From: Pontiella desulfatans
GTDB lineage: Bacteria; Verrucomicrobiota; Kiritimatiellia; Kiritimatiellales; Pontiellaceae
Assembly: GCF_900890425.1 (NCBI RefSeq)
Contig: NZ_CAAHFG010000005.1
Coordinates: forward strand, 186,001-250,000
DNA length: 64,000 nucleotides
Direction of reading: 5' to 3'
The position numbers and the translations under genes were made by a program. Below, piece after piece: positions 18,270 to 35,732 of the stretch. The notes under the pieces were generated by a model, which was not told the origin of the DNA, ran no database searches, and saw nothing but the letters and a program-made list of their open reading frames with translations. Position 1 is the stretch's first letter, and every line of letters begins with the position of its first letter.

Positions 18270-18379
18270 GACAGGATTAACGCAGATTTACATGATCTTG
18301 GACGCTTACAGCAAAGAGCTGACAGCTGGTAGTAAATACGGGCGTTTTTGAAATCATGTAGATCATGTAGATCCGGTCA
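18270..18379. repeat. Inverted repeat of the GACAGGATTAACGCAG family
   Basis: The left arm (18270-18297) reads GACAGGATTAACGCAGATTT followed by ACATGATC. The right arm, GATCATGTAGATCCGGTC, ends at 18378. It is the same family as 122-202 and sits between two sulfatase genes. Confidence 0.65.
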
Positions 18380-18404
18380 AAAAAAGAAGTTTAAAAGGTG
18401 CAGT

Positions 18405-19862: not shown

Positions 19863-19930
19863 TAGTTGTTGGTTGTTAGTTGATGGGGTTGCGGCGCAGC
19901 CGCTCTGGAGCAACAGTGCTTAACAGCAAC

Positions 19931-20845
19931 CTAAATTTCAGCATTTTTCACGGCGGAGTTAGCAGCGATGAGCAACTTTCTCATGACCGCCGTAAGCGCG
20001 ACCATTTTTGGGCGGTGGTTTTCATTTACCAGACGCTGGTAGAACTCGCGAAGAACTGGGTTGTATGTCCTGGCATTCATGGCAGCCATGTACAGGCAGG
20101 AACGCAACCTTCGGCGCCCGCCACAGACATGCCGCCTGCCGGACTTGCCCCCGCTGTCCCGGTTGAAGGGGGCGAGTCCCGCCAGCGACGCGATTTCCCT
20201 GCGCGAAAGCGTGCCGATCTCAGGGAGGTGGGCGAGCAGGGTCACCGCATTGACGATGCCCAGGCCTTTGATGGACTGGATACACTTGGCCTTCTGCGTC
20301 ATGGTTGCGTCTTCGGCAAGGGTATCTTTGATTTTCGCTTCGATTTTCTCGAGCTGCTTTTCAAGCCACTTGAGATGCTGCTTGATCAGTCTGACCATCT
20401 CCGGCTCGTCGGCAGTTCCCAAGCGGTTCTTCTCGGCCGTATGCATGTCGCTCAGGTGCACCCTTCGATCAACGAGGGCGGTGAGCCTGCGCTGCGTCGC
20501 CGAAGGCTTCTCGGAGGGCTTGGGGTCGGTGTGCGACGCGAAGTCGCGGATCATCCGCGCGTCGATCGGATCGGTCTTGGCGATCTGCCCCATGCCCAGC
20601 GCGAAGTGCCGGACGCGCGACGGGTTCACGATGCTCGCGGTGCCGCTGGCGGCCATCACCATCCAGGCGGCCATGCGTTCGTAGCCGCCCGTGGACTCGA
20701 AGACATAGTGGGCGCTGCCCGCCCAGTTCATCAGCGCCGTGGCACCCTCGCAGGTGTTGTCGAAGCGACGCGCTGTTTTTCCGTTGAAGGCATCCAGATG
20801 CTTCTTGGAAACATCGACGCCACAGTATACTTTTTCCTTGTTCAT
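19931..20845 (-). CDS. IS110-family transposase (bridge recombinase)
   Basis: A 304-residue protein with the N-terminal DEDD/RuvC-like domain ('YCGVDVSKKHLDAF', 'FESTGGYERMAAWM', 'AKTDPIDARMIRDFA'). A central coiled segment follows. The C-terminal Transposase_20-type domain ('SIKGLGIVNAVTLLAHLP', 'ASLAGLAPFNRDSGGKSG') carries the conserved serine region. It appears full length. Members of this family are guided by a structured non-coding RNA from the element's own end. The upstream region here is consistent with that. Confidence 0.92.
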   Translation of the reverse strand: MNKEKVYCGVDVSKKHLDAFNGKTARRFDNTCEGATALMNWAGSAHYVFESTGGYERMAAWMVMAASGTASIVNPSRVRHFALGMGQIAKTDPIDARMIRDFASHTDPKPSEKPSATQRRLTALVDRRVHLSDMHTAEKNRLGTADEPEMVRLIKQHLKWLEKQLEKIEAKIKDTLAEDATMTQKAKCIQSIKGLGIVNAVTLLAHLPEIGTLSRREIASLAGLAPFNRDSGGKSGRRHVCGGRRRLRSCLYMAAMNARTYNPVLREFYQRLVNENHRPKMVALTAVMRKLLIAANSAVKNAEI

Positions 20846-21049
20846 ATTTGCTCCTACTTGCTAATGCGAGCTCGCTCGTACGGCTCATGCAACAGTTCGA
20901 GTTCAATATGGCAACCATCCGGCGGATCCGGGCTCCAGAACGTTCGCCAAAGGCGAACCAGTGCGGCACGATCTCACCGGACGGGAACCTCTCCCGGCTG
21001 GCCGGCCGGGGGAGGCACTCCTCTACGAGGATTGCACAACCCCTTTCAC
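20846..21049 (-). ncRNA. Candidate bridge RNA region of the IS110 element
   Basis: The region upstream of the transposase start holds no gene but two strong hairpins. One is a perfect 7-bp stem with a 3-nt loop (20942-20958, GTTCGCC AAA GGCGAAC). The other is an 11-bp stem with one wobble pair (20988-20998 with 21005-21015). In the IS110 group the bridge RNA is encoded in exactly this position, between the left end and the recombinase gene, and read in the same direction. The RNA and its target/donor loops were not folded here, so this is a positional and structural inference. Confidence 0.45.
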
Positions 21050-21104
21050 GGGAAAAAGGATTTCTCCGACGTTATAGAAATTCATTCTCAAAATCCTTTT
21101 TCCC
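21050..21104. repeat. 14-bp inverted repeat with a 27-nt loop near the IS110 outer end
   Basis: GGGAAAAAGGATTT (21050-21063) pairs perfectly with AAATCCTTTTTCCC (21091-21104). It may be a terminator of chromosomal origin, the target structure chosen by the IS110 element, or part of the element end. Confidence 0.5.
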
Positions 21105-21139
21105 TACCTGTTTTGAGTTGGTTGGAGAAACATACAAGT

Positions 21140-21158
21140 GCGGTGACGGCGTCACCGC
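21140..21158. promoter_or_regulatory. Perfect 19-bp operator-like palindrome upstream of the GH5-like gene
   Basis: GCGGTGACG and CGTCACCGC flank a single central G. The short, centred dyad 39 bp before the start codon looks like a repressor or activator site rather than a terminator. The regulator is unknown. Confidence 0.4.
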
Positions 21159-21196
21159 TTTGGTCGCAACGAATGAATGGAAAGCAACGAATTGTA

Positions 21197-22480
21197 ATGA
21201 ATATTGTAAAATGGATCGCAGGAGTTTTTGTAATGGCAGCTTCACTGACAGGAGCAGGGGAGACGGTTCAACCGCTGGAACGGGTTGCGGTGAAGCCGGG
21301 GATCAGCGGGGCGCAGTTTGTGCTGAAACGTTCCGGCAAGCCGTTTTATGTAAAGGGATTCAATTATATCCGTCTGGAGCCGGGGCATTCCACCTTTGAC
21401 GCGGCGACCGATTCTACAGAAGCCCACTATGAGCCGGAGCGTGCGGAGGAAATGTTCCAGACTTTGGAAAAGCATGGCTACAACACGGTTCGCGTTTTCC
21501 TGATCGGTCGCAGCAAAGCCAACCCCGGTGTCGGCGGAAACTATGACACCACGCAGGGGAACTATGAGCCGTACATGGATAATGTGCTCGATTTCCTGCG
21601 TCGGGCGACCCGTCACAATATTCGCGTGTTTCCCACCTTTGGTGACGGCGGCCTGCCGATGAATGCCTATTACTACGATCGATTTAAGGGCCGTAAGCTC
21701 AACAAGAATACTCTGTTTCTCACGAAGGAGGGGATCGAGGCACGCATCGAGTTCATCGCGTCCTTCCTGTCGTATGTGAAAAAGAACGATCCGAACCTCC
21801 TGCCGACCCTGTTGGGGCTGCAGTGCCAGAACGAAGCGTATATGAAGGCCGATGCCTGGCCGTTTTCTGAAACGAAGGGGCCGTTTAAGGCGGCCAATGG
21901 CAAACGATACGATCTTTCAGATACGAAGGAGCGCCATGCGCTGATGGATGAAGGATATCAATATTACCACAAGCGGATCATGAAGGCGGTGAAAGCCATC
22001 GACCCCGACATGCTGGTGGCCGAAGGCGTTTTTGTTCCGCGGGCGGTCGGTAAAGATTATGAAGAAGATGCCGGTCTTTGGCCCGGCCGCTTCAAGGATG
22101 AGCGTTATCCGCCCACACTGACGGCGCTGGGTGATGGTCCGCTCGATTTTCTCGATGTGCATTTTTATCGGGCCAATACCAAGGAGTCGGTGGACCGGGC
22201 CTTTGAAAACAACCTGGCTTCCACCGGATTGTTTGCCAAAGAGATGAAGGGGATCCGGATAAAGAAACCGGTCATCATCGGCGAGTTCGGTGCATTTGAT
22301 CATGTCGAAAAAACCTTCGAGGAAGCGGTCGATAACATGGTGACCGTTCGCGACCTGGCGCAGAAAGAAAGGGTCAACGGCATGCTTTTCTGGACCTACG
22401 ATTGTCTTGAGCAGAAGAGGCTCTGGCATGCGACCGACAACTGGGATCTGTTTTTCGAAAAGATGGGGACGTTTGAGTAG
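21197..22480 (+). CDS. Secreted GH5-like glycoside hydrolase (TIM barrel)
   Basis: The open frame extends leftwards through the IS110 element on the antisense side, but the real start is the ATG at 21197. It opens with a signal peptide (MNIVKWIAGVFVMAASLTGA). The 427-residue mature enzyme begins 'FYVKGFNYIRLEPGH', the typical first strand of GH5/GH-A-clan enzymes. The acid/base candidate is Glu213 in 'LQCQNEAY' and the nucleophile candidate Glu363 in 'IIGEFGAF', about 150 residues apart as expected. 'FLDVHFYRA' carries a conserved His-Tyr. It is an endo- or exo-acting beta-glycosidase, and the linkage cannot be told. The Shine-Dalgarno is weak (GGAAAG). Confidence 0.8.
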   Translation: MNIVKWIAGVFVMAASLTGAGETVQPLERVAVKPGISGAQFVLKRSGKPFYVKGFNYIRLEPGHSTFDAATDSTEAHYEPERAEEMFQTLEKHGYNTVRVFLIGRSKANPGVGGNYDTTQGNYEPYMDNVLDFLRRATRHNIRVFPTFGDGGLPMNAYYYDRFKGRKLNKNTLFLTKEGIEARIEFIASFLSYVKKNDPNLLPTLLGLQCQNEAYMKADAWPFSETKGPFKAANGKRYDLSDTKERHALMDEGYQYYHKRIMKAVKAIDPDMLVAEGVFVPRAVGKDYEEDAGLWPGRFKDERYPPTLTALGDGPLDFLDVHFYRANTKESVDRAFENNLASTGLFAKEMKGIRIKKPVIIGEFGAFDHVEKTFEEAVDNMVTVRDLAQKERVNGMLFWTYDCLEQKRLWHATDNWDLFFEKMGTFE

Positions 22481-22844
22481 CGTCCGCACTGAATCAACAA
22501 AACTGGATGAACCACGAAATACACCAAAATAGAACAGGACGGAGATTGTTTCTTGCCGGCACAATCACCTGCCTATATGGGCTTGTTGAACAGTAAAAAA
22601 TGGAGGGTCGGCGGCCCGACGACTTACGCACGCAAGGCCTCTCGTTACGGGCTTTTCACCGGTGTAGGCACGGGGCCCGTGCCCCTCCACACTCGAATAG
22701 AAGCTTTTTCAGCAGTCAGGGCCTGTCTGTCTGCGGCTGATATCAGGATGGAGTATTTACCACAGAGTACACTGAGACACAGAGTAGGGGCCCTTGTGCA
22801 CTCTGTGGTGAAAAAATATAACTATGTATGAAAGGTGCCGTATT
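22481..22844. repeat. Gene-free gap filled with repeat-like sequence
   Basis: There is no credible gene. The gap contains a perfect GC-rich palindrome CACGGGGCCCGTG within 22660-22690. It also holds a CCACAGAG...CTCTGTGG inverted pair (about 22761-22809), both resembling dispersed repeat families. A 92-codon open frame across it is made of this repeat sequence and has no family features. Confidence 0.6.
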
Positions 22845-24407
22845 ATGATGAGAAGAATTTGGTTTGTTGTTTTTTGTGCACTGGCGGTTTCGGTCTCTGC
22901 CGCCATTAAAACCGGTCCGCTCTTTACTGACAATATGGTGCTGCAGCGTGGGAAACCGGTTGTCATCTGGGGCACCGCCGAGCCCGGGGAAAAAGTAATG
23001 GTTGAATTTGCCCCTTCGGCAGGCTCAGGACAGGCGGGGCAGAAAAAGTCGGCCGTCACGGATTCTTCCAGGCATTGGGAAATCACCCTAGCCCCCATGC
23101 CAGCCTCTTCCAGCCCTTGGAACATGTTGATCCAGTCATCCAATAATCCAACCATCCAATACTCCAATCTCCTCGTCGGTGAGGTCTGGTTCGCGGGCGG
23201 ACAGTCGAATATGCGCTGGGCGCTGTGGAATACAGACGGTGCGGCGGATCTGTTTCAGTCGGGTGGAGCGGACATAGAAGGCCTGCGCCTCTTTGCTATG
23301 CCGGAAGTTATGAATGAGCTGGATGCCGATCTTCCGATCAAAGGATGGCAGAAATCCACGAAGGAAAACGCGACCGACTTTTCTGCAGTAACGTGGTACT
23401 TCGGGCGCGCGCTCAAGGAAAAGTTTAAGGATGTGCCGGTCGGGCTGATCATGTCGGCCCGCGGCGGTACGCCGGCCGAGGCGTGGATGGATCCAGCGTT
23501 CTCCACCGACTGCAAGCCGTTTTCCGAGTATGCCGACTGGTGCGATCAGGAATACCGTGCGAAATTTGACAGCTTTGATTCATACAAGGCGGCCTACATT
23601 CAGTACAAAGCGGATTGGAAGGCGTTTGTGCATAAAAAGAGCACGAAGAAGCCGGTCGAACCGATGGGCCCTTATCACGCGCACCGGGCAGGTGGGCTGT
23701 ATGGGACCATGATCGCACCGCTCCTACCGTACTCCGTGCGCGGGGTGCTTTGGTATCAGGGCGAAAGCAATATGTGGCGGGCCTACGACTACCGCGATGT
23801 GCTCGAAACGCTGGTTGCTAACTGGCGGCGCGATTTTAAGGATCCGGTGCTGCCGTTTCTGGTCGTGCAGTTGCCGGGCTTCGGCTGCGGCGGTGCGGAG
23901 CATCTCGTCTGGGCGGTCGTGCGTGATTCTCAAGCCGCTGTTGCCAAAGCCGATCCGAACGTCGGCGTAATCCCGATTCCTGTGCTGGGCGATCAAAAGG
24001 ATATCCATCCGCGCAACAAACGCCCGGTCGGTGAGCGGCTGGCGCTCTACGCCCGCGGGGCGGTCTATGGAGAAAAGATACCGTTTGCCGGGCCCTCCCT
24101 TGAGTCGGTCCACTTCAGTGGCGGTAAAGCGGTTGTTTCACTGAAAAACGCCGAAGGGCTGGAACAGAAGGGCGACGTGATTCACGGGTTCACCCTTGCC
24201 GGTACGGATGAGCAGTTTGTGCCTGCTGTGGCGGAGCTGAAAAAGGGAAAACTGGTGATCCACAGCCCGGAGGTAAACGAGCCGGTTGCCGTGCGCTACC
24301 TCTGGTCCAACTGGATCGACCCGGCAGATGTTAACCTCTTCAACAAGGCCGGCCTGCCGCTCGCTCCGTTCCGGACGGATGGTTTTAAGGTGGTCACTCA
24401 GAAATAA
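22845..24407 (+). CDS. Secreted sialate-O-acetylesterase-like SGNH esterase
   Basis: Start at 22845 with AAAGGTG upstream. The 520-residue product has a signal peptide ending in VSVSAA. Catalytic features are Ser121 in 'GGQSNMRW', the 'WYQGESNM' block and the Asp386-x-His388 pair in 'KDIHPRNKRP'. This is the SASA-domain pattern of sialate and acetyl-sugar esterases. The region between the N-terminal beta domain and Ser121 holds repeat-encoded inserts: 'PSAGSGQAG', 'SRHWE' and 'SSPWNMLIQSSNNPTIQYSN'. The usual protein is shorter there. The probable role is removal of O-acetyl groups from the polysaccharide attacked by the neighbouring sulfatases and glycosidases. Confidence 0.87.
   Translation: MMRRIWFVVFCALAVSVSAAIKTGPLFTDNMVLQRGKPVVIWGTAEPGEKVMVEFAPSAGSGQAGQKKSAVTDSSRHWEITLAPMPASSSPWNMLIQSSNNPTIQYSNLLVGEVWFAGGQSNMRWALWNTDGAADLFQSGGADIEGLRLFAMPEVMNELDADLPIKGWQKSTKENATDFSAVTWYFGRALKEKFKDVPVGLIMSARGGTPAEAWMDPAFSTDCKPFSEYADWCDQEYRAKFDSFDSYKAAYIQYKADWKAFVHKKSTKKPVEPMGPYHAHRAGGLYGTMIAPLLPYSVRGVLWYQGESNMWRAYDYRDVLETLVANWRRDFKDPVLPFLVVQLPGFGCGGAEHLVWAVVRDSQAAVAKADPNVGVIPIPVLGDQKDIHPRNKRPVGERLALYARGAVYGEKIPFAGPSLESVHFSGGKAVVSLKNAEGLEQKGDVIHGFTLAGTDEQFVPAVAELKKGKLVIHSPEVNEPVAVRYLWSNWIDPADVNLFNKAGLPLAPFRTDGFKVVTQK
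23008..23170 (+). repeat. Repeat-derived inserts within the esterase gene
   Basis: A CCCTTCGGCAGGCTCAGGAC element (peptide PSAGSGQAG) comes first. Two degenerate TTCCAA palindromes (23066-23081 and 23108-23122) follow, then an ATCCAATAATCCAACCATCC run. All are in frame and lie before the catalytic serine. Confidence 0.6.
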
Positions 24408-24442
24408 ACGGACAGATTGGTGTTTTTTGACATGATTTGTTT

Positions 24443-24535
24443 GGTAGGGATGGTTCGATGAACGGTCCGCCCGGAGAAGGGTGGTGCATCGGCCGGGCGG
24501 GGGAACGGCGGCGGGTTCATCGAACCAGCCCTGCC
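24443..24535. repeat. Large imperfect hairpin of the GGTAGGG...CCCTGCC repeat family
   Basis: The outer arms GGTAGGGATGGTTCGATGAAC and GTTCATCGAACCAGCCCTGCC pair almost fully. A GC-rich inner stem (GTCCGCCCGG with CCGGGCGG) sits between them. Related elements lie inside coding sequences at 29544-29609, in the hsdS linker and at 53523-53577. Confidence 0.75.
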
Positions 24536-24614
24536 TCGACTTCTGCTTTCCTGTGGGGCATGGCAAGCTCTCCTCAGCTCTCCCTGCCTGATGTCCGGCG
24601 GAAAAGAAAATAAA

Positions 24615-24662
24615 TTGGAAAATGAAATTGAACTGTAATATATAATATGACAGATTGTATTT
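24615..24662 (+). promoter_or_regulatory. Shared ~48-bp upstream element (second copy)
   Basis: Gapless counterpart of 9148-9195. It contains TATAAT (24641-24646), which could serve as a -10 box for the lipoprotein gene at 24712, and ends in TGACAGATTGTATTT. Confidence 0.4.
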
Positions 24663-24711
24663 CATATAGGGCGGGTTATCGCTCGAACAGGCATTTATAA
24701 CCAGGGATCCA

Positions 24712-25905
24712 ATGAATATTAAGCTCATAAATTTAGTAGTGATAAGTGGCGTACTGGCTGCTTGTGCGCCGATGGAACCGACTGAATCGGTTAAGCCGAA
24801 GGTGACGGAGGCCGCGGAGCCGGTGCGTGATGCCGGGCTGGGGGTCTGGTATGGGCCGGCGTCGCTCAATACGGTGACGCGCGGGATCCGTGATGATTTC
24901 CTGGAGCAGTTTACGGATACCGCCAACTGGCCGACGGTGTATGGTGAAACAGCGGTGTTTAAACAGTTTATTGAATCGCTCGGTGGTGAGAAGTACAGCG
25001 ATGAGGAGCTGAAACAGCTGGCGACCTTTACCCGCGAAGCCGGGCTGAAGTGTGCCTTTGAGATCGGCGCGTTGCGCTGGGATCCTAAATTATACGGTGA
25101 AGGCAGCGGCGTAGCGTATGCTGCGCAGGAAATTAAGGTGCTGCAACGCTGGGTGAAAGCCGGCGGAACGGTTGATTATCTAAGCACGGACCATGCCGTA
25201 ATGTGGAATGTGGGGCTCTGCCTGCAGGGCGCGAAGCCGATGGCTTCATATGTTAAAGATCCTGACTGGCGCGTGGTCATGGATGAGGTGGTTGATTCGC
25301 TCGCCATGATCCATGAGGAATTTCCCGCGGCTAAAATCGGCATGATTGAATCGCTTGGTTATTTTTCAGTGGGCGATACCTATACGACGACCGACCCCGG
25401 TTGCATCTATCCGATCGACATGGAGGAATTTCTCGCCACTGCGCAACAGAAACTGGGCGAGCGCGGGGTGGAGCTGGATCACCTGCACATTGATTTCAGT
25501 TATCAGGATTGCCGTTACGATGGGCGCAATGAAAAGCGGCTGGACTTCGGGCGCATCATGGCCGCAGAGGCGATTGTGAAATCGCTGGGCCTCGACAGCG
25601 GGATCATCATTAATGCCTTCGACGACTTTTCCTATGTCGGCTCCAACACGGTGCAGGAAAAGGAAAAGGCACAGAATGCGGCCGAGCGCAGTGCCTCCGC
25701 CGTGGATAACACCCTGGAATATTTTGATGGATATGTCGCCGCAGGCGGCAACCCCGATACCTGGATCTTCCAGCGCTGGCAACCCTATCCTGATGTGACC
25801 GGTCCCGAGACCGTCCGTGATACGGATATGGGCGTGGCGCGTTTGCTGGTGAACAAATTGAAAGCACGGTCAAAGGTCGGAACGTCCAAGGTCGAAGGTC
25901 CGTAG
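24712..25905 (+). CDS. Lipoprotein, probable TIM-barrel carbohydrate-active protein of unknown function
   Basis: 397 residues with a lipobox at residues 15-18 (LAAC), so the mature protein is expected to be membrane-anchored through Cys18. Recurrent 'L.IDFSYQDCRYD', 'EYFDGYVAAGG' and 'DTWIFQRWQPYP' segments suggest alternating strands and helices of a barrel fold. I see no signature of a known glycosidase family. The last residues ('RSKVGTSKVEGP') and the 60 bp after the stop are low-complexity 'AAGGTCGAA / ACTTTCGACT' sequence, another repeat type that may have extended the C-terminus. Its position between the esterase and the phosphorylase argues for a role in the same pathway. Confidence 0.75.
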   Translation: MNIKLINLVVISGVLAACAPMEPTESVKPKVTEAAEPVRDAGLGVWYGPASLNTVTRGIRDDFLEQFTDTANWPTVYGETAVFKQFIESLGGEKYSDEELKQLATFTREAGLKCAFEIGALRWDPKLYGEGSGVAYAAQEIKVLQRWVKAGGTVDYLSTDHAVMWNVGLCLQGAKPMASYVKDPDWRVVMDEVVDSLAMIHEEFPAAKIGMIESLGYFSVGDTYTTTDPGCIYPIDMEEFLATAQQKLGERGVELDHLHIDFSYQDCRYDGRNEKRLDFGRIMAAEAIVKSLGLDSGIIINAFDDFSYVGSNTVQEKEKAQNAAERSASAVDNTLEYFDGYVAAGGNPDTWIFQRWQPYPDVTGPETVRDTDMGVARLLVNKLKARSKVGTSKVEGP

Positions 25906-25980
25906 TATTGGACGACTTTAGACGTTTAAACTTTCGACTTTCGACTCGAAAACGAAGTTTGAGAAAAAAGGAATAGAATC

Positions 25981-28332
25981 ATGGCTGACAGTGGAACATT
26001 AACGGAAATAATTCCTGCCGAATTTGGCGGGGCATCGGAAAAAATCCCCTTCGAATACAAGGCGGATGGAAAAGAGCTGTGCATTGCGACACCGGAGCCG
26101 GATCGTACGCTGCATAACATGCTCTACAATCCGAACTACCTGACCATGCTCGATCAGGGCAACTGCGGCATGGCCAAGCATATGTCGCCGGCGGGGCGTA
26201 ACTGCAAGATTGTGCAGAACGACCGCTTCGTCTATGTGCGTGATGCGGAGAGCGGGGAATATTTTTCGATTGGTTTTGCGCCGGTCTATAAAGACTACGA
26301 CCGCTACGAATGCCGCAACGGGCAGAACTACCAGGTGGTCGAAAATGTGACCGACGGTATTGAAGCCGTTTGGCGAATCTATGTGCCGGCCGGTGAAGAT
26401 CCGGTGGAAGTGTGGGATGTGCGGCTGCGCAACACGGGTGACAGCGCCCGCAAAATGCAGCTGTTTACTTATGTGCCGATGAATTGCGACGGCGAAGATC
26501 TTTATTGTGGCGAGCTGCACCGTATAGCTGAATATCTGCCTGAGCAACGAGCGCTCTTTGTCTGCATGGATGCCCCTCGCTATCTGGAAGGGGTCGACCT
26601 TCCGTGGCATAATGGTTTCCTGGCGATCAACCGAAAACCCGATGGGTGGGATGCGAGCCTCGGTGCCGTGATTGGCCCACGTCGTACCACGCAGAACCCG
26701 TTGGCGGTGGAGCAGGGTGCATGTTCCAATTCCAAATGTGCGATGTTCAGCCCGGTTGGCACCATGCAGGTCGATATGAATCTGGCTGCGGGGGCGCAGG
26801 ATGAAGTCCGCTTTATGATCGGTGCCTGCGATGCGGTGCCGATGATTGACGCGTTGACCTCAAAATATCTCTCGTCCGGTTCATTGGAATCCGACGTTCA
26901 TTTTGACGCGCTGTTGACGACGGAAAATAAGCGAGCGGCCAATCTTCAGGTGAAAACCCCGGATGATGTGCTGAACAACATGGTCAATGTCTGGAGTCCG
27001 AAGCAGATTGACTACGGTGTGGTCTGGACCCGCTGGGGCTTTAAAGGCTATCGAGATATTATCCAGCAGTGCCAGGGCGCGGTGATCCAGCAACCGGAAG
27101 CGGCGCTGGAACAGTTGTTGAAAGCCTGCGCGCATCAGTATGAATCTGGTTTCGGCCTGCGCGGCTGGCATCCGATTGATGATCTGCGCTATGCCGACAG
27201 CTCGCAGTGGATGATTGGTGCCTTCTCTGAATACCTCGCTGAAACCGGCGATTTTGAAACGCTGGAAAAGGTGGTGCCGTTTTTTGATCAGGGCGAGGCC
27301 TCGGTTTATGAACATTTGCGCCGCTCGCTCAAGCGTCTGCGTGCAGACCGTGGAGCGCATGACCTGAATCTAGTGTTCTATGGGGACTGGAACGATTCGC
27401 TGACCGGTGTCTGCCGCGAAGGGCGCGGCGAGAGCGTATGGCTTTCGATGGCTTTTTGTCGCAGTTGCCTGATTCTAGCGGATATTGCGGAATACATCGG
27501 TAAAGCTGATGATGCCACCGAATATCGCCTGTGGCAGAAAGAGATGGCCGCGGCCATTAACGAACATGCCTGGGACGGCAACTGGTATATCTGCGCGCTC
27601 GATGATGATGCGAATGCGATCGGTTCGCAGCAGAACGATGAAGGAAAGATTTTCCTTAACATGCAGAGCTGGGCGCAGCTTGGAAAAGTGGTGCCGGAAG
27701 ATCGCTGGGAGCAGAGCTGGAACAGTGTCGGGCAAATGCTCGATTCCGGTTGGGGGCTGATGCTCAACTGGCCGGCCTACACCAAGTATGTGCAGAACGT
27801 CGGGCGTCTGAGTTCCATCCGTCCGGGTGCGGCGGAAAATGCCAGCGTTTATACGCACGGTAACGCCTTTATGCTGCTGGCGCTGCTGGAACGCGGCATG
27901 GCCGATGAAGCCTACGAGCTGTGGCAGGCGGTTCAGCCGGGCAATCCGGAGCGCCCGGTGCTCAACCAACCGAATGTCTTCTTCAATGGCTACTACGGCC
28001 CCGACAGCGAAAACCGTGTGGGCATGGGCGAACACTCCTGGACGACGGGTTCCGTGCCGTGGATGTATCAGTGTGTCACCGAGCACATGCTCGGCGTGCG
28101 CCGCACACTCGGCGGTTTGGTGATTAAGCCCTGCATGCCGTCGGCGTGGGAAGAGGCTTCTGTGAATCGGACCTACCGTGGAACCACGTATGACATCCGC
28201 ATCAGCAATCCCGGTAAAAAAGCCGGTGCCGCTGTCGCATCCATCAGTGTTGATGGAGCGGCGCACGATGCGGTTCAGGCCCTTCCGGTTGATGGCGCAA
28301 CCCATTCCGTAGTGGTGGTGCTGGAAGGCTGA
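25981..28332 (+). CDS. GH94-type disaccharide/oligosaccharide phosphorylase
   Basis: 783 residues without a signal peptide, so it acts in the cytoplasm. The N-terminal ~280 residues form the beta-sandwich of GH94. The (alpha/alpha)6 barrel follows ('VVWTRWGFKGYRDIIQQ', 'RGWHPIDDLRYADSSQW'). The family motif GDWND is at residues 468-472 with Asp472 as the likely general acid. The C-terminal 'GIRVP..EHSWTTGSVPWMY' region is present in its family form. The reaction would be reversible phosphorolysis of an imported disaccharide to sugar-1-phosphate. The exact substrate (cellobiose, laminaribiose, chitobiose or another) is not determinable. The ribosome-binding site AAAAAAGGAATAG is strong. Confidence 0.88.
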   Translation: MADSGTLTEIIPAEFGGASEKIPFEYKADGKELCIATPEPDRTLHNMLYNPNYLTMLDQGNCGMAKHMSPAGRNCKIVQNDRFVYVRDAESGEYFSIGFAPVYKDYDRYECRNGQNYQVVENVTDGIEAVWRIYVPAGEDPVEVWDVRLRNTGDSARKMQLFTYVPMNCDGEDLYCGELHRIAEYLPEQRALFVCMDAPRYLEGVDLPWHNGFLAINRKPDGWDASLGAVIGPRRTTQNPLAVEQGACSNSKCAMFSPVGTMQVDMNLAAGAQDEVRFMIGACDAVPMIDALTSKYLSSGSLESDVHFDALLTTENKRAANLQVKTPDDVLNNMVNVWSPKQIDYGVVWTRWGFKGYRDIIQQCQGAVIQQPEAALEQLLKACAHQYESGFGLRGWHPIDDLRYADSSQWMIGAFSEYLAETGDFETLEKVVPFFDQGEASVYEHLRRSLKRLRADRGAHDLNLVFYGDWNDSLTGVCREGRGESVWLSMAFCRSCLILADIAEYIGKADDATEYRLWQKEMAAAINEHAWDGNWYICALDDDANAIGSQQNDEGKIFLNMQSWAQLGKVVPEDRWEQSWNSVGQMLDSGWGLMLNWPAYTKYVQNVGRLSSIRPGAAENASVYTHGNAFMLLALLERGMADEAYELWQAVQPGNPERPVLNQPNVFFNGYYGPDSENRVGMGEHSWTTGSVPWMYQCVTEHMLGVRRTLGGLVIKPCMPSAWEEASVNRTYRGTTYDIRISNPGKKAGAAVASISVDGAAHDAVQALPVDGATHSVVVVLEG

Positions 28333-28360
28333 TTGTCGGCAAATGTTGGGAATAAGGGAG

Positions 28361-28395
28361 TGAGCTGCAGCAATGGTGTTGCAGTTCATTCTTTT
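28361..28395 (+). terminator. Rho-independent terminator after the GH94 gene
   Basis: TGAGCTGCA and TGCAGTTCA form a 9-bp stem with one G-U pair, followed by TTCTTTTT. It separates the phosphorylase from the next gene. Confidence 0.6.
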
Positions 28396-28458
28396 TAGTA
28401 ATTAGCAGATTTTCTAGATTGAGGGCTAAATAGGTTTTCAGCTTTAGATGAGGGGTTT

Positions 28459-31188
28459 ATGAAAAGGTCAAAATGGATCTGGTGTGCGCACAATGCGCTT
28501 CGTGAATACAATCAAACCGTGCTCTTTAAAAAGGAGTTCGAGGTAACCAGAACCGATGGAGCGCTGCTGCAGATTACGGCCGACAGCTGGTATCGGGTTT
28601 CGGTGAACGGCAAGTGGATTCACGACGGACCGGCGCGTGCCTATCCAGACCATTATCAGTATGACGAGCACGATATTTCCGCCGCGCTCAAAAAAGGAAA
28701 AAACAAGATCGAAGTGATCGCCCGCTATTTCGGGATCGGTACCTTCCATCAGATTCCTCAGGTAGCCGGACTGCGCGCTGCCCTGCTGGTCGATGGCCAG
28801 ATGATCGGAACCGACTCCAGCTGGCAGGCTGCACCGTCGCATGCCTGGCAGCAGTGGACGCCGAAGATCTCGATCCAGATGGAGCCGTTCGAGGAATATG
28901 ATGCCCGTCTCGAAAAAGTGCTCGACTGGCAGCCCGCCGTCGAAGTGAAGCGTCCCGGAAAGCTGGTGCAGCGCAACACCGGCCTGCTGACCCAAAAGCC
29001 GCGCCGCCCAGTCGGCGAGCCGACCGCTACCCGCGTCAAAAAGAGCGCGCCGCACTGGTGCGTTCCCGTAGCACAACTGGCGCACGGCGAAATGATCGAA
29101 GCGAATTTTTATACCAGCCGTCCTGTGGTGCTTGGTTCCGTTCTTACGGTCCGGAAAAAACAGCAGTTTGATTTCAGTTCCATGGAGTGGAAGGTGTCGG
29201 TAAGCGGTCGCTTGCTTAAAACCGGCAAGGTTACGCTGAAGCCCGGCAAGCATGAGATCCGCTTTTTCTGCAACAGCTTTTACGGCCACAATAAGGAACT
29301 TGCCTTTCCGTGGTTGAACCTCAAGGGCTGGGGCGAGTGGTCGGTTGAGCTGGCCTCCGCCTGCCTGTTCCTCGATAACGACCGCCGCTGGTTTGCCAGC
29401 TTTGAACATGCAGAAGCCAAAAAGGCTGAACGGCGCTGGCAGAAGGCCATCGAGCAATATCCTAAAGGCTTCAGTACGCTGGACCGGTCCATAGAGCAGG
29501 TCTTTATGGAGGATCCAGCTGCGCAGTTTACCGCACGTACAGAGGTAGGGATGGCTCGCCGAGCCGTCCGCTCTGCAGCAGGCGGCGCTCTCGGCGATAG
29601 CGCCGTACCTGTTACGGTCACGCCTTCGCCTAAAGGTGATGCGGAACTCTGCTTCGACTTTGGCGAGCAGACCTGTGGCTATTTTGAATTTACAATCAAG
29701 GCAGACGAAGGTGTGATTGTTGACCTTAACGCGGTGGAATACATTACACCGGATGGAACGATTCAGCACACGCTTCCGTTCAACCGCAACGGCATGCGTT
29801 ACATCACGAAAAAGGGCGTCAACCGCTTTACGTCGCTCAAACGCCGCTCAGGGCAGTATCTGTTTGTGACAATCCGTAACGCGAAGGCACCGGTCGAAAT
29901 TAAGTCGGTGCGCATCATTGAGTCGACCGCTCCGGTTTCTCCGGTTGAAATGTTCAAATCGAGCGATCCGTCGTTAAATAAAATCTGGAGCATGTCCGAG
30001 CGCACGCTGCAGCTCTGCATGGAGGACACGTTTACCGACTGCCCGCTTTATGAACAGACGCTCTGGATCGGCGATGCCCGAAATGAAGCACTCTATGCCT
30101 TTGCGGCGTATGGCAACTACGATGTTTCTGCACGCAGCCTTGAACTCGGTGCGCAGTCGCTTGATCAGTTTCCGATGGTTGGTTGCCAGGTTCCGTCATC
30201 GTGGGACTGTCAGCTTCCGGCCTGGAGCTTTCTGTGGGGTATGCAGGTTTGGGAACACTATTTCCATACCGGCGATAAGCGCTTTCTGAAAAAACTGTGG
30301 TCCGCTGTTCTCAAAAATCTGGACGGGGCGGAGCAGTACAAAGATAAATACGGTCTCTTCAGCGGGCCGCTGTGGAACCTGCTCGAATGGGCGCCGATTG
30401 ATCACGATAACGAAACGGTGCTGCACAACAGCATGCTATTGGTCGGTGCATTGCAGGCTGCGGAAAACTGCGCGGACGTGCTGGGTGAAAATGCAACTCA
30501 GAAAAAACTTAAAACCCGCCGCAACAGACTCATCCGCGCGATCAATGCCCAGTGGAATGAGGAGAAAGGGAGCTATCCGGATGCCCTGCTCGACACTACC
30601 GGAAAAGCGAGCGTCAAGACCTGCCAGCACACCTCTATGCTTTCAATTATGTGTGATGTGGCTACGCCCCGCATTCAGAAGTCCGCACTCAACAACCTGC
30701 TCAACTCGCCGAAAGGCATGACCACCATCGGTTCGCCATTCGCCATGCAGTTTATGTATGAAGCACTGGAAAAGGCGGGGGAATATGACGCATTGTTGGA
30801 CTCCATCCGCACCAAATTCCAGCCGATGATCGACGTCGGTGCCAGCACGGTCTGGGAAATGTTTGCAGGAAGCGATTTTGATACCCTCGGCTTCCCGACC
30901 CGCAGCCACTGCCACGCTTGGGCGTCGAGCCCGATCTGGTTCCTGACGCGTATCGTATTGGGTATCCGTCAGACTGACGCGGGCGGAAAGGCCTTCGAGA
31001 TCAGCCCGTGGATATCCGGCCTCAAACACGCCAGCGGAGCCATGGCCACCCCCAAAGGACCGGTGCATGTCGACTGGAGGATCAAAGGAAAAAAACTACA
31101 GATTACCATTGCCGCACCGACAGGCGCAAAGGTCGAGTTTATTCGGAATGCCAGTATGAAGGGGTTGTGCGTTATCCCAGCGGAATAA
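28459..31188 (+). CDS. GH78-like alpha-L-rhamnosidase-family glycosidase
   Basis: 909 residues starting with GAGGGG upstream and no signal peptide. The N-terminal beta domains ('KWIWC', 'ADSWYRVSVNGKWIHDGPARAYP') and the catalytic (alpha/alpha)6 region ('DTFTDCPLYEQTLWIGDARNEAL', 'WEMFAGSDFD', 'RSHCHAWASSPIWFL') match the layout of GH78. The usual 'DCP.R.E..GW.GD' motif appears here as 'DCPLYEQTLWIGD', so Glu in 'YEQ' and Asp in 'GDARNE' are the likely acids. A 22-codon repeat element is inserted in frame at 29544-29609, between the N-terminal domains and the catalytic part. A cytoplasmic rhamnosidase fits uptake of sulfate-free oligosaccharides. Confidence 0.8.
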   Translation: MKRSKWIWCAHNALREYNQTVLFKKEFEVTRTDGALLQITADSWYRVSVNGKWIHDGPARAYPDHYQYDEHDISAALKKGKNKIEVIARYFGIGTFHQIPQVAGLRAALLVDGQMIGTDSSWQAAPSHAWQQWTPKISIQMEPFEEYDARLEKVLDWQPAVEVKRPGKLVQRNTGLLTQKPRRPVGEPTATRVKKSAPHWCVPVAQLAHGEMIEANFYTSRPVVLGSVLTVRKKQQFDFSSMEWKVSVSGRLLKTGKVTLKPGKHEIRFFCNSFYGHNKELAFPWLNLKGWGEWSVELASACLFLDNDRRWFASFEHAEAKKAERRWQKAIEQYPKGFSTLDRSIEQVFMEDPAAQFTARTEVGMARRAVRSAAGGALGDSAVPVTVTPSPKGDAELCFDFGEQTCGYFEFTIKADEGVIVDLNAVEYITPDGTIQHTLPFNRNGMRYITKKGVNRFTSLKRRSGQYLFVTIRNAKAPVEIKSVRIIESTAPVSPVEMFKSSDPSLNKIWSMSERTLQLCMEDTFTDCPLYEQTLWIGDARNEALYAFAAYGNYDVSARSLELGAQSLDQFPMVGCQVPSSWDCQLPAWSFLWGMQVWEHYFHTGDKRFLKKLWSAVLKNLDGAEQYKDKYGLFSGPLWNLLEWAPIDHDNETVLHNSMLLVGALQAAENCADVLGENATQKKLKTRRNRLIRAINAQWNEEKGSYPDALLDTTGKASVKTCQHTSMLSIMCDVATPRIQKSALNNLLNSPKGMTTIGSPFAMQFMYEALEKAGEYDALLDSIRTKFQPMIDVGASTVWEMFAGSDFDTLGFPTRSHCHAWASSPIWFLTRIVLGIRQTDAGGKAFEISPWISGLKHASGAMATPKGPVHVDWRIKGKKLQITIAAPTGAKVEFIRNASMKGLCVIPAE
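29544..29609 (+). repeat. GGTAGGG...GTACC palindromic element inserted in frame in the GH78-like gene
   Basis: A 66-bp element (exactly 22 codons) begins GGTAGGGATGGCTCGCCGAG and ends CGCCGTACC, with GC-rich internal dyads. It encodes the low-complexity peptide starting 'VGMARRAVRSAAGG'. Its borders match those of the intergenic copy at 24443. Confidence 0.65.
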
Positions 31189-31224
31189 TGCTTCGGAATG
31201 TGTTTAGAATGAAGCTGGGTCCAG

Positions 31225-31299
31225 GAAGAGTTTGACGTCACCAACTCCAATTTCAGCGGACGTATTACCATCGATAACTACACGGTTGTCGATGGGTAG
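31225..31299 (+). pseudogene. Possible 3' remnant of a secreted-protein gene
   Basis: A 24-codon open tail ('EEFDVTNSNFSGRITIDNYTV' and on to the TAG at 31297) has the look of the final strands of a beta-rich secreted protein. It has no start codon or Shine-Dalgarno in context. It may mark the left edge of the mobile-element scar that follows. The gap 31300-31397 holds no gene. Confidence 0.3.
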
Positions 31300-31397
31300 C
31301 TCCTGATTCGGTAATCGACTGTCGTGTAGATTGATATGAAGGAATTTCTGCGCATATCATGTGCATGAATTCGGTCGTTCTGCTATACTTCCTCATT

Positions 31398-31982
31398 ATG
31401 AGACCGAAACTTAAAATCACCTCCAGCACCTACACCCGTGAAGACCTTCTTGATCATATAGACGATGCTCATTTCCAGAAAAACTGGAAGGCGAAGCGTC
31501 GGTACCAGGTCATCCTTCATGCCTTGTCAGGAAAGTACACTACCGATGAAATCGCTGAGGAGGTCGGTTGCAGCCGGGCCAGTGTGACGAACTGGGTGAA
31601 GCGCTGGCGGGAGGGTGGTACTTGGGCATTGGAGAAAAACAACTACAGGCCTACCCGCCAACCTGCACTTACCGAGGAAATGGTAGTCGATTTAGTCGAG
31701 CATCTGACAGCGGGCCTGATAAGCGGGGGTAAAGGACATGAAAGCATACAGGTCTGGCTGAAGGAAAGGTATGATCTGGATCTGGCGATTACGGCGGTGG
31801 ACTACTGGTATTCAAAAATCTGGGATCGGTTCTGTAAGGGGGAGTTGCAAGACTGCGATGCTTCTCCAAAAAATCCCCACGAGGTCGATCTCGGGCTTCG
31901 GCAGAGGTTGGAGGATCGGGAAAAGAAGAGAGCAGAGCGGGATAGAAGGCGTAGGCAGCTAGGTCTAGTAGCTTGTGCTTAA
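31398..31982 (+). CDS. Helix-turn-helix protein resembling the N-terminal half of IS630-type transposases
   Basis: The start is at the ATG at 31398; the 13 codons upstream in the same frame are hydrophobic noise. In the 194-residue product, residues ~40-75 ('ALSGKYTTDEIAEEVGCSRASVTNWVKRW') form a clear HTH. A winged-helix stretch ('AVDYWYSKIWDRFC') ends near 145 and a basic tail ('REKKRAERDRRRRQ') follows. There is no DDE catalytic domain here or just downstream. It is therefore either the first part of a decayed two-gene IS630-type element or a domesticated DNA-binding protein. Confidence 0.65.
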   Translation: MRPKLKITSSTYTREDLLDHIDDAHFQKNWKAKRRYQVILHALSGKYTTDEIAEEVGCSRASVTNWVKRWREGGTWALEKNNYRPTRQPALTEEMVVDLVEHLTAGLISGGKGHESIQVWLKERYDLDLAITAVDYWYSKIWDRFCKGELQDCDASPKNPHEVDLGLRQRLEDREKKRAERDRRRRQLGLVACA

Positions 31983-32180
31983 GTTTTCTTCCTTTGTGGT
32001 CACAAATGACATCCCTGTGTTTTGATGACGGACCAAGAGTGTTCGGTCTGACAATAGGTTTAGGGGATCCGGCTGGTATATTCAGTGTAGACCAATTGAA
32101 ACTGATAGTGTTTGCAATGAAAATTCTAAAAGGACATATAGTCAGCATTAAATTAATTAGTGTGGAAATTATGTCTTTAA
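31983..32180. other. AT-rich gap with no gene
   Basis: About 200 bp of AT-rich sequence upstream of the AbiEi-like gene. I see no open frame with coding character and no hairpin. It could hold the promoter of the AbiEi/Fic unit, but no confident -35/-10 pair is visible. Confidence 0.5.
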
Positions 32181-32708
32181 ATGAAGGCAGGCACCAGGCA
32201 GATATTTGAGGTGCATGGCGGGCAGTTGCGCATGCATGCAGCGCTTGCGGGGGGCATAAGCCGGACGCAGCTCTATTCCCTGCGGGACCGCGGGGATATT
32301 GAGCTGGTATCACGTGGTGTCTACCGGTTGTCTGATCTCCCGGCGCTGGGCAACCCCGATTTGGTAACTGTGTCCCTGCGCTAACCGAAAGCGGTGGTTT
32401 ACCTGATCTCCGCTCTCTCTTTTCATGAAATAACCACACAGATCCCGTTCGAAGTCTCTGTGGCGGTACCGCGCAACACGACCCTGCCCAGGCTCGATTA
32501 TCCGCCGTTTGATGCCCACTGGTTTGCCGGAGCTGCTTATGATTCCGGAATCGAAACGCATGTTGTCGATGGCGTCCGGGTTCAAGTCTACTCCCCGGAA
32601 AAGACGCTGGCCGATTGTTTCAGGTTTCAGAGCAAGCTGGGAACCGAGGCGGTGAGCCGAATAACAGTATTAATCGGCTCATTATATTCTTCCTTTGTGA
32701 GCCGATAA
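32181..32708 (+). pseudogene. AbiEi-like antitoxin gene, broken by a nonsense codon and 3'-truncated
   Basis: The first part encodes the winged-helix domain of AbiEi-type regulators ('GGQLRMHAALAGGISRTQLYSLRDRG', 'GVYRLSDLPALGNPD'). A TAA at 32382-32384 interrupts the frame exactly within 'VSLR-PKAVVYLISALSFHE', where intact relatives continue without a break. The remainder is in the same frame ('VYSPEKTLADCFRFQSKLG'). It loses family similarity after 'KLGTEAV', where a palindromic operator begins. The defect is therefore one nonsense substitution plus loss of the C-terminus. No AbiEii-type nucleotidyltransferase follows; a Fic gene takes its place. Confidence 0.75.
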
Positions 32709-32727
32709 AGTGCCATAAACGGCTCAT
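32652..32727. promoter_or_regulatory. Two tandem TGAGCCG-N15-CGGCTCA palindromes upstream of the Fic gene
   Basis: TGAGCCG at 32653-32659 and CGGCTCA at 32675-32681 form a nearly perfect 29-bp dyad. The identical half-sites with the identical 15-bp spacer recur at 32698-32704 and 32720-32726, 45 bp further on. The second dyad runs into the Fic start codon (32726). The arrangement is that of a two-site operator for cooperative repression, plausibly by the product of this gene or its (lost) partner. Confidence 0.65.
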
Positions 32728-33829
32728 GAAATATATCTGGCAGCAGGATAATTGGCCTGAATTCCAATACGATTTGACAGGAATTCAGGAGAAAATGATC
32801 CGTTTTACCGAAAAAACGGGCCGGGTTGACGGTTTGTTGTCCGCCCTTCCTGAATCACTCCGGATGGATGCCGTCATTGAGTTGATGGTTGCCGAGGCTG
32901 TAAAAAGTTCTGAGATCGAGGGCGAAATGCTTAGTCGTCCTGACGTGATGTCCTCGATTAAGAATAATCTCGGTATACCTTCGAGGCCCAGGCATGTGAG
33001 TGACTCCCGAGCAAGGGGAATTGCGGAGTTGATGGTTTATGTCAGGGACGATTTCGCCCATGCTTTAAGCCGGAAAATGTTGTTCACATGGCACTCGATG
33101 CTCATGGAGGATAACGCTTATGTGAAGTCGGGGGCATGGCGCTCGCATTCAGAGCCCATGTTGATTGTATCGGGTACAGTCGGCAGCGAGCAGGTTCACT
33201 ACGAAGCCCCGCCATCGCCGCAGATTCCCGGGGAAATGAAACGCTTTGTCGAATGGTTTAATGCTACGGCACCGGGGGCGCAGTATGAAATTTGTTATGC
33301 GCCCGTTCGTTCTGCTTTGGCTCATCTCTACTTCGAGTCCATTCATCCGTTTGAGGACGGTAATGGGCGAATCGGCCGGGCCCTTTCCGAAAAGGTTCTG
33401 TCCCAGGGATTGGGCAGGCCGGTGGTTATGAGTCTGTCGCGTTCCATTGATGAGGACCGGCAGGGCTATTACGACGCCTTAAAACTGGCTCAACAGGCCG
33501 GTAGAGTAACGGAGTGGCTCGAGTGGTTTGTGAACATGCTGATGAATGCTCAAACGCAGGCGGAGACCGAAATTGAATTCACCCTGAAGAAAACCAGGTT
33601 GTTTGACCGCGTTGAAGGTGAGCTCAACGCTCGGCAGTTGAAGGCTGTTCGCCGTATGCTCGCTGAGGGGCCTGCTGGGTTCGAGGGCGGTATGACGGCA
33701 AAAAAATACATGGCGATTACGAAAGCAACCAAGCCCACAGCTACCCGCGATCTGCAGGATCTTGTTGCCAAAACAGTGTTAATTCCTGAGGGAAGCGGGC
33801 GCAGTACGCATTACCAGGTAAATATCTGA
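32726..33829 (+). CDS. Fic-family protein (AMPylator type) with N-terminal inhibitory helix
   Basis: The start at 32726 sits inside the second operator half-site; the open frame reaches further up, but only through AbiEi and operator sequence. The 367-residue product has a DUF4172-like N-terminal region ('WQQDNWPEFQYDL'). The inhibitory motif S-S-E-I-E-G is at residues 61-66. The Fic core is H207-P-F-E-D-G-N-G-R-I-G-R, complete with the catalytic His and phosphate-binding loop. A C-terminal winged helix ends the protein ('TATRDLQDLVAKTVL'). The expected activity is transfer of AMP to a target protein, held in check by Glu65. The winged helix could bind the upstream dyads. Confidence 0.92.
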   Translation: MKYIWQQDNWPEFQYDLTGIQEKMIRFTEKTGRVDGLLSALPESLRMDAVIELMVAEAVKSSEIEGEMLSRPDVMSSIKNNLGIPSRPRHVSDSRARGIAELMVYVRDDFAHALSRKMLFTWHSMLMEDNAYVKSGAWRSHSEPMLIVSGTVGSEQVHYEAPPSPQIPGEMKRFVEWFNATAPGAQYEICYAPVRSALAHLYFESIHPFEDGNGRIGRALSEKVLSQGLGRPVVMSLSRSIDEDRQGYYDALKLAQQAGRVTEWLEWFVNMLMNAQTQAETEIEFTLKKTRLFDRVEGELNARQLKAVRRMLAEGPAGFEGGMTAKKYMAITKATKPTATRDLQDLVAKTVLIPEGSGRSTHYQVNI

Positions 33830-33832
33830 AGA

Positions 33833-35131
33833 CTATACCGCTTTCGTCATAGGAATGATCTTGGCCTCTTTTGCGGGTGCGATCTTGAAATAGGCCTTGG
33901 CCTGATTCTTCCGGTTTTTAGCTAGGCCGCGGTAGTGCTTAAACAGCATCTTTGTATCGGTGTGCCCCAGTTCCTGAATGGTGTCATCCATGGTGTTCAA
34001 GGCTAAGTAGTAGGTGGCGAAGGAGTGCCTAGCTCCATCCTGGATGTATTTAACATCGAGATCCTTGAATATGGCCCGACGCCAGCTTCGGAGCACAGTA
34101 TCGGAATAGGGGAAGACCGGTGCGTCGTCATCACCGCGATACGGGATCAGCCACTTTTTGAGATTGGCCGGGATGTGAACGATGCGAGCCGTTGAGGTTT
34201 TCGAGGTATCTGCATTTACGTGGATCTCATCCAGCTGCAGGTCGATGTCCTTCCACTTTAGCCGGGTGATCTCGTTGGGGCGTATGCCGACAAAGAATGC
34301 CAGGGCCATATAGGGGATTAGACTGCTTCGCTCTGCAGGCACAAATTTGCCGTCAACCTTCACCTTCCTGACTGGGCGTTTTTTCCCGTTTTTCAAAGTT
34401 GCGGCCTCCTCGGTGAAATCAACGCAGGCCTCCATGATGGTGCTGACATCTTTGGCGGTATAAATCTCCGGAGTGTGAGAGGGTTTCTTGATTTTCCGTG
34501 TGCGTTGTACCGGGTTCGCTTTGATTTTGTCCTGAACAATGCACCAGTTAAAGAAACCGCTGAGATAGCGACGGTGATTATCGCGACTGGTAGCCTTGAA
34601 TTTCTGTTTATCCAACCAGTCATCGACATCGGAGGGCTCAATGGTGTCGATGGCGAGGTTCTTCATATCGGCCTGAAACTTAGAAAGTCGAATCTTATAT
34701 TCCTTATATGAGCGCTCTCGGATCTCGTCGTCTTCATAGCGTTGTTTCTGGTAGGCGTAGTATTGATCAAGCAGCTGGCCGGTGCCATTGGTGTGGTCGA
34801 CTTCCTGGTTATGTTTGATGTAGAAGGCGGCGGCTTCCTTTAGATTAATACCGAACGGCTCAAGCATTTCGAGAGCGGCTACTGCGTCTTTCCGCTGGCG
34901 GTCGGAGAAAGCCAGAACCTTTACGCCCTGGTTCTTTGCTGTATTGCTCTTCTCAAATGCGCAGTTACGGGCTTTTTGTAATGACGTAAAAGACTGGCGT
35001 ACATGTTTGCCGGTGGATCTCCCTAGGTCGACCTGGTATCGTTTACCCGCTTTGGTGGTAATCAGGCGTATTCTGTAACCCGCGTGAATCTCGTACCCAT
35101 CATCTTTGATCGTTGGTTTATTTTTGCTCAT
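33833..35131 (-). CDS. Tyrosine site-specific integrase
   Basis: 432 residues. An N-terminal arm-binding region (about 1-110) precedes a SAM-like core-binding domain (about 125-215) and the catalytic domain. The catalytic domain shows 'GIRPNEITRLKWKDID' (first Arg), 'GARHSFATYYLA' (Arg-His box) and 'LGHTDTKMLFKHYRGL' with the nucleophilic Tyr. The gene points away from the tRNA-Thr fragment located 134 bp from its start, the usual geometry for an integrase next to its attachment site. Convergent with the Fic gene, 3 bp apart. Confidence 0.93.
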   Translation of the reverse strand: MSKNKPTIKDDGYEIHAGYRIRLITTKAGKRYQVDLGRSTGKHVRQSFTSLQKARNCAFEKSNTAKNQGVKVLAFSDRQRKDAVAALEMLEPFGINLKEAAAFYIKHNQEVDHTNGTGQLLDQYYAYQKQRYEDDEIRERSYKEYKIRLSKFQADMKNLAIDTIEPSDVDDWLDKQKFKATSRDNHRRYLSGFFNWCIVQDKIKANPVQRTRKIKKPSHTPEIYTAKDVSTIMEACVDFTEEAATLKNGKKRPVRKVKVDGKFVPAERSSLIPYMALAFFVGIRPNEITRLKWKDIDLQLDEIHVNADTSKTSTARIVHIPANLKKWLIPYRGDDDAPVFPYSDTVLRSWRRAIFKDLDVKYIQDGARHSFATYYLALNTMDDTIQELGHTDTKMLFKHYRGLAKNRKNQAKAYFKIAPAKEAKIIPMTKAV

Positions 35132-35264
35132 GACATCCCTTTCAATGCAACCAGCATAACAAAGATCCTACCCCAAACAAGTTATGGTTGCATTGAAGTT
35201 GCATCGAGATTTTTAAAATATATGTAAATAGCATATTTAGAACGGTGTACCAAAATGTGGTTTT

Positions 35265-35313
35265 CGGATTTGTAATCCGTTGGTCGTCAGTTCGACTCTG
35301 ACCGCCGGCTCCA
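35265..35313 (+). other. Attachment-site scar: 3' fragment of a tRNA-Thr(TGT) gene
   Basis: The 49 bp fold as the 3' half of a tRNA. They give an anticodon loop TTTGTAA (anticodon TGT) on a 4-bp stem, a 5-nt variable loop and a perfect T arm (GTCAG TTCGACT CTGAC). The 3' acceptor strand CGCCGGC, discriminator T and encoded CCA follow. The 5' half (expected GCCGGCG start and D arm) is absent upstream. The fragment with its native terminator to the right marks the boundary of an integrated element lying to the left, next to its integrase. Confidence 0.8.
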
Positions 35314-35318
35314 CTCTC

Positions 35319-35345
35319 AAGCCCCTGTTTTCAGGGGCTTTTTTT
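35319..35345 (+). terminator. Rho-independent terminator of the original tRNA-Thr gene
   Basis: AAGCCCCTG-TTTT-CAGGGGCTT followed by TTTTT. The perfect 9-bp stem lies 6 bp after the tRNA CCA end. Confidence 0.9.
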
Positions 35346-35732
35346 GTGTTTTAACCCTTCTATTATTGATCTAAATGAAAGTGGGCGTTTTTGGGGTGTT
35401 GCTTTTTCCTGCTCTTGCCTGCTTCAAATTTCCACTCCTCAAACTAGGGGGTTTTGTAACCATTCTGTAACCAAATTCAGGGGGTTCTGTAACCAAGATT
35501 AGACCTCTGTATTCAAGAAGACGTTCTGCATCTAGGCGATGAGCATTGCATGGGAAGTTTAAGCGCAGGGAAAACTATCTCCCGAAGTGCATAACCCAAA
35601 GTAGGAAACTGATATGCGGCTACACTTGTTTCTGGTTAACGATGGGATGAGGGATTCAGGGGGAATAACCCCTTAGGCTTATCTTTTCACAAAAACCACG
35701 AAATTATTCCAATGTGACTCAAGTTGCTTGGT
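35346..35732. other. Gene-free stretch before the IS21-type element
   Basis: No coding sequence is evident. Short direct repeats of GGGGGTT(T/C)TGTAACCA occur at about 35445-35495. The rest has no recognisable feature. Confidence 0.5.

Follow-up and report, generated by a model that had tools for sequence, protein, structure and literature searches.

Probable tandem integration of sulfatase-carrying elements at a tRNA-Thr gene of Pontiella desulfatans

A tRNA fragment, an integrase and their neighbours

We analysed a window of 64,000 nt (C5:186001-250000, the whole stretch studied) in the 8.66-Mb, six-contig genome of Pontiella desulfatans; positions given without a contig are those of the window. 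As an earlier note on this DNA had described, the 3' part of a tRNA-Thr(TGT) gene (att3, 35265..35313, + strand) lies beside an integrase gene (33833-35131), with a hairpin and T run to its right (35319..35348, + strand). The att3 block runs from the 5' side of the anticodon stem to CCA and forms the right boundary of what we call element B, so that the hairpin is the first DNA outside it. ARAGORN called no tRNA in the window, and att3 scored 25.4 bits against the Rfam tRNA model, where the gathering cut-off is 29; both results are expected of a fragment. The fragment and terminator also gave an Rfam match to the sRNA BjrC1505, which was dismissed, its score being well below the cut-off.

The integrase gene is on the minus strand, is transcribed away from att and encodes a full-length tyrosine integrase of 432 aa that retains the conserved R, R, H and Y motifs. 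It matches PF00589 (E 5e-11) and a PHROG integrase family (E 3e-41), and its relatives lie beside tRNA fragments. Searches of viral contigs and plasmids found nothing close, the best phage matches being about 26% identical and belonging to Akkermansia phages, and a search of solved structures gave no match. Between the gene and att3 are repeats (35141..35206; TTCAATGCAACCA / TGGTTGCATTGAA and GTTGCATC), of which TTCAATGCAACCA and TGGTTGCATTGAA form a perfect 13-bp inverted repeat beside the integrase, with another GTTGCAT there. The TTGCAT repeats of this end recur on left ends and on the sister elements described below, and they look like arm-type binding sites of the integrase. A further motif, TTTAGAACGGTGTACCAAA (35237..35255), adjoins the core and is conserved in an alignment of the right ends of B, elements C and D and an element in the relative G017.

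To the left of the integrase lies a cluster of eight sulfatase genes (PF00884; 278..19862, + strand: 278-4843, 4867-7398, 7483-8979, 9180-11132, 11260-13080, 14115-15917, 16730-18256 and 18348-19862). The first encodes a single 1521-aa chain with both a pectate-lyase/beta-helix part and a sulfatase domain. Within the cluster, on the minus strand, is a probable toxin-antitoxin pair (13084-13922), recognised by eye as PIN/DUF3368-like and Phd/YefM-like. An IS110-like transposase (19905..21145, minus strand) belongs to a multi-copy insertion sequence inserted in the cargo, with genome copies 94-100% identical; an 866-aa + strand reading frame over it was rejected as spurious from its translation. 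The glycan genes follow on the + strand (22824..31188): a SASA esterase (22824-24407), a gene of unknown product (24712-25905), a GH94 enzyme (25981-28332) and a GH78-like rhamnosidase (28459-31188). A paralogue of the GH94/GH78-like pair and its neighbouring block lies at C1:2867257-2873482, outside the mapped elements, with 79-86% DNA identity. Between these genes and the integrase are an HTH protein (31359-31982), an AbiEi-like HTH fragment (32181-32384) and a Fic/DUF4172 protein resembling SoFic (32615-33829), all on the + strand; this stretch (31359..33829) is 93-96% identical to the tRNA-Arg element C.

Two left ends and one complete right end

The earlier note had correctly stated that no intact tRNA-Thr lies within 35 kb to the left of the fragment, and had suggested looking for one upstream that shares the 49-bp core. 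We found it at C5:90976-91050, 95 kb left of the window and 130 kb left of att3, sharing the whole core. A 47-bp tRNA-Thr pattern matched three times in 8.66 Mb, each time exactly, and its reversed control gave no match. The three copies of the tRNA-Thr(TGT) 3' block, all on C5 and identical over 49 bp, are the intact gene, a middle copy (att2, C5:161328-161376) and att3. No intact tRNA-Thr lies just right of the fragment, where one would have spoken against the proposal.

DNA to the right of the intact tRNA-Thr is homologous to DNA to the right of att2: in both places a terminator (AAAGGCCTCGTAATTA..TTACGAGGCCTTT) is followed by ATGCAACC and GTTGCAT repeats. The DNA to the right of att3 is different and starts with GCCCCTGTTTTCAGGGGC, which also follows the tRNA-Thr gene in G001 (L039), as its presumed native terminator, and a tRNA-Thr fragment in G016 (L045). 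Because the GCCCCTGTTTTCAGGGGC hairpin adjoins the tRNA-Thr block in these relatives as well, it lies outside the element and is most likely the native terminator of tRNA-Thr. Homologous left ends at tRNA-Thr and att2, together with different DNA beyond att3, therefore indicate two elements in tandem. The order is host, tRNA-Thr, element A (C5:91051-161376, 70.3 kb), att2, element B (C5:161377-221313, 59.9 kb, covering 1..35313 of the window), att3 and flank.

We consider it highly probable (about 0.9) that the fragment and integrase represent the right end (attR) of element B, a 60-kb tyrosine-integrase element that entered tRNA-Thr(TGT) by recombination in its anticodon arm and follows the related, 70-kb element A in tandem. 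The proposal that fragment and integrase mark an element's end is borne out by the two left ends with their common terminator and arm sites and by the matching right end in B. So is its orientation, since the left ends lie to the left and the right-hand hairpin also follows the tRNA-Thr block in relatives. The other end was rightly placed beyond the window; it lies 24.6 kb to the left of it, with the refinement that B is bounded by att2 and not by the intact tRNA.

Element A encodes no integrase of the B family, and to the left of att2 there is neither an integrase nor an arm site, so the array does not consist of two complete elements. Instead, a gene breaks off there after its first 18 codons (MKKKTGKINKGAPSGFVI) and continues as the core, with the fusion point inside GCGGATTTGTAATC. 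Intact homologues of this broken gene in relatives encode 517-522 aa, and those of G013 and G016 read GCGGATTTGTAATCAG at the place of the junction. The stretch common to gene and tRNA is CGGATTTGTAATC, 13 bp that correspond to the anticodon arm; within the parts of the P. desulfatans genome examined, no occurrence of this 13-mer lies outside the three att copies. A search of the same genome for the reciprocal product of the junction found none, and the other paralogues lack GGATTTGTAATC. The right end of A is best explained as broken by integrase action at a secondary site: the core at the A/B boundary would have recombined with CGGATTTGTAATC, the look-alike core near the start of a cargo gene, deleting the right end of A and its integrase. 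Tentatively, B may instead have entered the look-alike core of the A gene first, a second recombination then removing the rest of that gene and the right end of A. This would leave the same final sequence, with the junction within the 13-bp common core, but it takes two events; one is enough for a deletion that joins the gene core to an A/B att site already present. Having lost its right end and integrase, A probably depends now on the integrase of B or on co-excision with B. Separately, a RIT-like trio of tyrosine recombinases (C5:101259-104493), present in four copies in the genome, splits the ArdC gene of A.

With the only integrase in B, the right end of A lost and the outer att copies identical, A and B might be a single 130-kb island, bounded by the intact tRNA-Thr and att3, that moves as a unit, att2 being the relic of an older fusion. 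We think this unlikely, since what follows att2 is again a complete left end, which has a terminator, arm sites and a RadC, ArdC and membrane-protein backbone of its own and so makes B a full element by itself. Movement of B alone and of the 130-kb pair may nonetheless be parallel routes now.

The earlier note had also proposed a comparison with genomes lacking the island. In six relatives (G001, G008, G016, G021, G024 and G027), orthologues of the genes left of tRNA-Thr occupy the corresponding side of this tRNA, and the right side differs in each. A kept left flank and a variable right side therefore identify tRNA-Thr as an insertion hotspot. The description of the DNA right of the fragment as host accordingly stands in part: it lies outside element B, but it is itself a variable hotspot region. 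Other insertions are visible around the site. tRNA-Thr fragments that belong to a different element group are present in G016 and G021 (L045, L047 and L049); two of them (L045 and L047) are beside a different integrase group, so unrelated islands use the same tRNA-Thr. An IS21 element (istA/istB, 35868-38149) adjoins att3 on the right; an istA closely similar to its own is found to the left of tRNA-Thr (C5:78455-79957) and another at C3:7390-8892. Farther right is a type I restriction-modification system with accessory genes (39458-53804), among them those for an AbiU-like protein and a PDC-M04A-like candidate. Type I restriction genes also lie right of the same tRNA in G027 and G024, and on this ground the right flank in the window may be an older layer of insertions.

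Sister elements, backbone and cargo

Two close relatives of the B integrase, 74-77% identical to it, are encoded in the same genome. One belongs to element C and sits on a tRNA-Arg(ACG) fragment (C3:41596), the intact tRNA-Arg lying near a contig end at C5:454228-454304; C thus spans a contig break, and the insertion-sequence copies at the two contig ends are oppositely oriented, so the join is tentative. The other belongs to element D (62.7 kb), which extends from a tRNA-Lys(CTT) fragment and integrase at C4:299483 to the intact tRNA-Lys at C4:362192-362267. ARAGORN and the left-end motif led to this intact gene, which does not match the tRNA pattern within two mismatches. The T stems of the intact and displaced tRNA-Lys copies differ and both still pair (TGGGG/CCCCA vs CAGGG/CCCTG), from which it follows that the element brought its own tRNA 3' half. 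Left ends are alike after tRNA-Thr, att2, tRNA-Arg and tRNA-Lys and in G017, as are the right ends of B, C, D and the G017 element.

Seven of the 28 genus genomes (six of 27 congeners, plus P. desulfatans) encode an integrase of the B family, and in six of the seven it lies beside the 3' part of a tRNA gene. Across the genus these neighbours are parts of tRNA-Thr, tRNA-Arg(ACG), tRNA-Lys(CTT) and tRNA-Arg(CCT), the anticodons and identities in relatives having been read by eye; we saw no tRNA in the neighbourhood of the G016 family integrase. In G012 (L061), the tRNA-Arg(TCT) downstream of a family integrase is whole and not a fragment, and the att site there may comprise an entire tRNA. The block common to the att sites is the anticodon arm, GAYT-NNN-AATC, a core location that one class of integrases is known to use (PMC4383910, PMC8371274).

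The elements have a common backbone and unrelated cargo. A, B, D and in part C encode a 140-aa protein, RadC, ArdC and a membrane protein; a PD-(D/E)XK nuclease is common to A, C and D, and a 380-aa protein to B and D (83% identity). Backbone proteins are 35-96% identical between elements, and in both B and C the integrase gene has Fic, AbiEi-like and HTH genes as neighbours. D also encodes a phage-like family A DNA polymerase, and A has a weak primase match. Scans with Pfam and PHROGs revealed no relaxase or type IV secretion gene among the backbone proteins scanned, several of which match nothing, and no capsid, terminase, tail or packaging gene among the genes scanned. Searches of viral contigs gave no relative of the B integrase or of the 380-aa protein, a conserved left-end protein whose structure prediction reached a mean pLDDT of 34.5 (two sequences).

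The cargo of B comprises nine sulfatases (the ninth, PF00884, at C5:180883-182535), the GH94 and GH78-like enzymes, an esterase, a sugar transporter and a GntR regulator. A carries sulfatases, an alpha-L-fucosidase, a symporter and esterases; C, a rhamnosidase, GH3 and sulfatases; and D, fucosidases, GH32 and sulfatases. The suggestion that the sulfatase and glycosidase clusters are mobile cargo fits the position of the sulfatase cluster between att2 and att3. Nor is that cluster kept in place across strains without an integrase, which would have argued the other way: a DNA-level search of 27 congeners found its sulfatase part absent save for one 237-bp match. With about 550 sulfatase candidates genome-wide, the four islands hold at least 16 in 236 kb where 14-15 are expected at genome density, and B alone holds nine where 3.6 are expected. 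Sulfatases are thus no denser in the islands than genome-wide.

This average density, the several insertion-sequence insertions and the lack of an integrase in A are what one would see if the tRNA fragments were old duplications or decayed remnants and the region an immobile chromosomal cluster. We regard that as very improbable, given att copies identical over 49 bp, a full-length integrase with its R, R, H and Y motifs, ends conserved across species and right flanks of tRNA-Thr that differ from relative to relative. Element and surroundings cannot be told apart by base composition.

Proposed mechanism and known systems

For the integrated elements, we suggest that the integrase would bind the TTGCAT arm sites and cut around the 7-nt anticodon loop, and that integration would swap the 3' half of the tRNA for the half carried by the element. 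Each left end would bring a new terminator, so that the tRNA stays expressed. Beyond this, we raise as a speculative model that one integrase family reads the conserved anticodon stem and tolerates any loop, so that a 7-nt loop change could retarget it to another tRNA. The same enzyme might recombine look-alike cores in cargo, stranding or reshaping it and helping sulfatase-rich genomes to build and reshuffle islands. The integrases of C and D, 81% identical, with the same stem and different anticodons, offer a natural test of how the tRNA target is chosen.

Two Pontiella strains were reported with 521 and 480 sulfatase genes, the most of any known microbe at the time (PMC6388578); the published genome of P. 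desulfatans F1 has 8.6 Mb and 521 sulfatases. The papers on Pontiella that were searched do not mention integrases, islands or horizontal transfer. The elements would provide a concrete vehicle, with mapped ends, for movement of sulfatase and glycosidase clusters between Kiritimatiellota, and their att sites are directly testable. Since sulfatases are no more concentrated in the islands than elsewhere in the genome, the islands would be a route of turnover and not the sole store. To the earlier note our analysis adds the tandem structure, both ends, the use of three tRNA genes by the family and a probable recombination at a secondary site; islands of this family are also found in other tRNA genes of this marine, sugar-degrading bacterium and in those of its relatives. 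Elements of this kind are well known; this family, its cargo and its host group appear not to have been described in the literature searched.

Integrative conjugative and mobilizable elements of gut Bacteroides carry polysaccharide-use genes, and ArdC and RadC are common on them. The Pontiella elements resemble these in their presumably mobile cargo of glycan-degrading enzymes and differ in having no conjugation genes recognised among those scanned, an anaerobic Kiritimatiellota host and a sulfatase-rich cargo. Several features by which tRNA islands are recognised are present: an intact tRNA and a displaced fragment on the same strand bound the element, a tyrosine integrase lies inside near one end (in B only), and the site is uninserted or otherwise occupied in relatives. 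The arrangement is that of Islander subsite A islands (PMC4383910, citing Williams 2002), with the intact tRNA at one end and the displaced 3' fragment at the other in the same orientation; like them, it has a tyrosine integrase inside and a crossover block that starts in the anticodon arm (PMC4383910). An Islander tandem array needs a tRNA fragment and an integrase for each island (PMC4383910); A has its att2 fragment and is missing its right end and integrase, which places the pair outside that definition. Salmonella genomic island 1 (SGI1; PMC2297512) is also known to insert in tandem, and its integrase to use a secondary attachment site. SGI1 differs in being a known mobilizable element that uses a thdF site and forms arrays of one island; here one tRNA site holds two different elements, and the presumed secondary site is part of a cargo gene.
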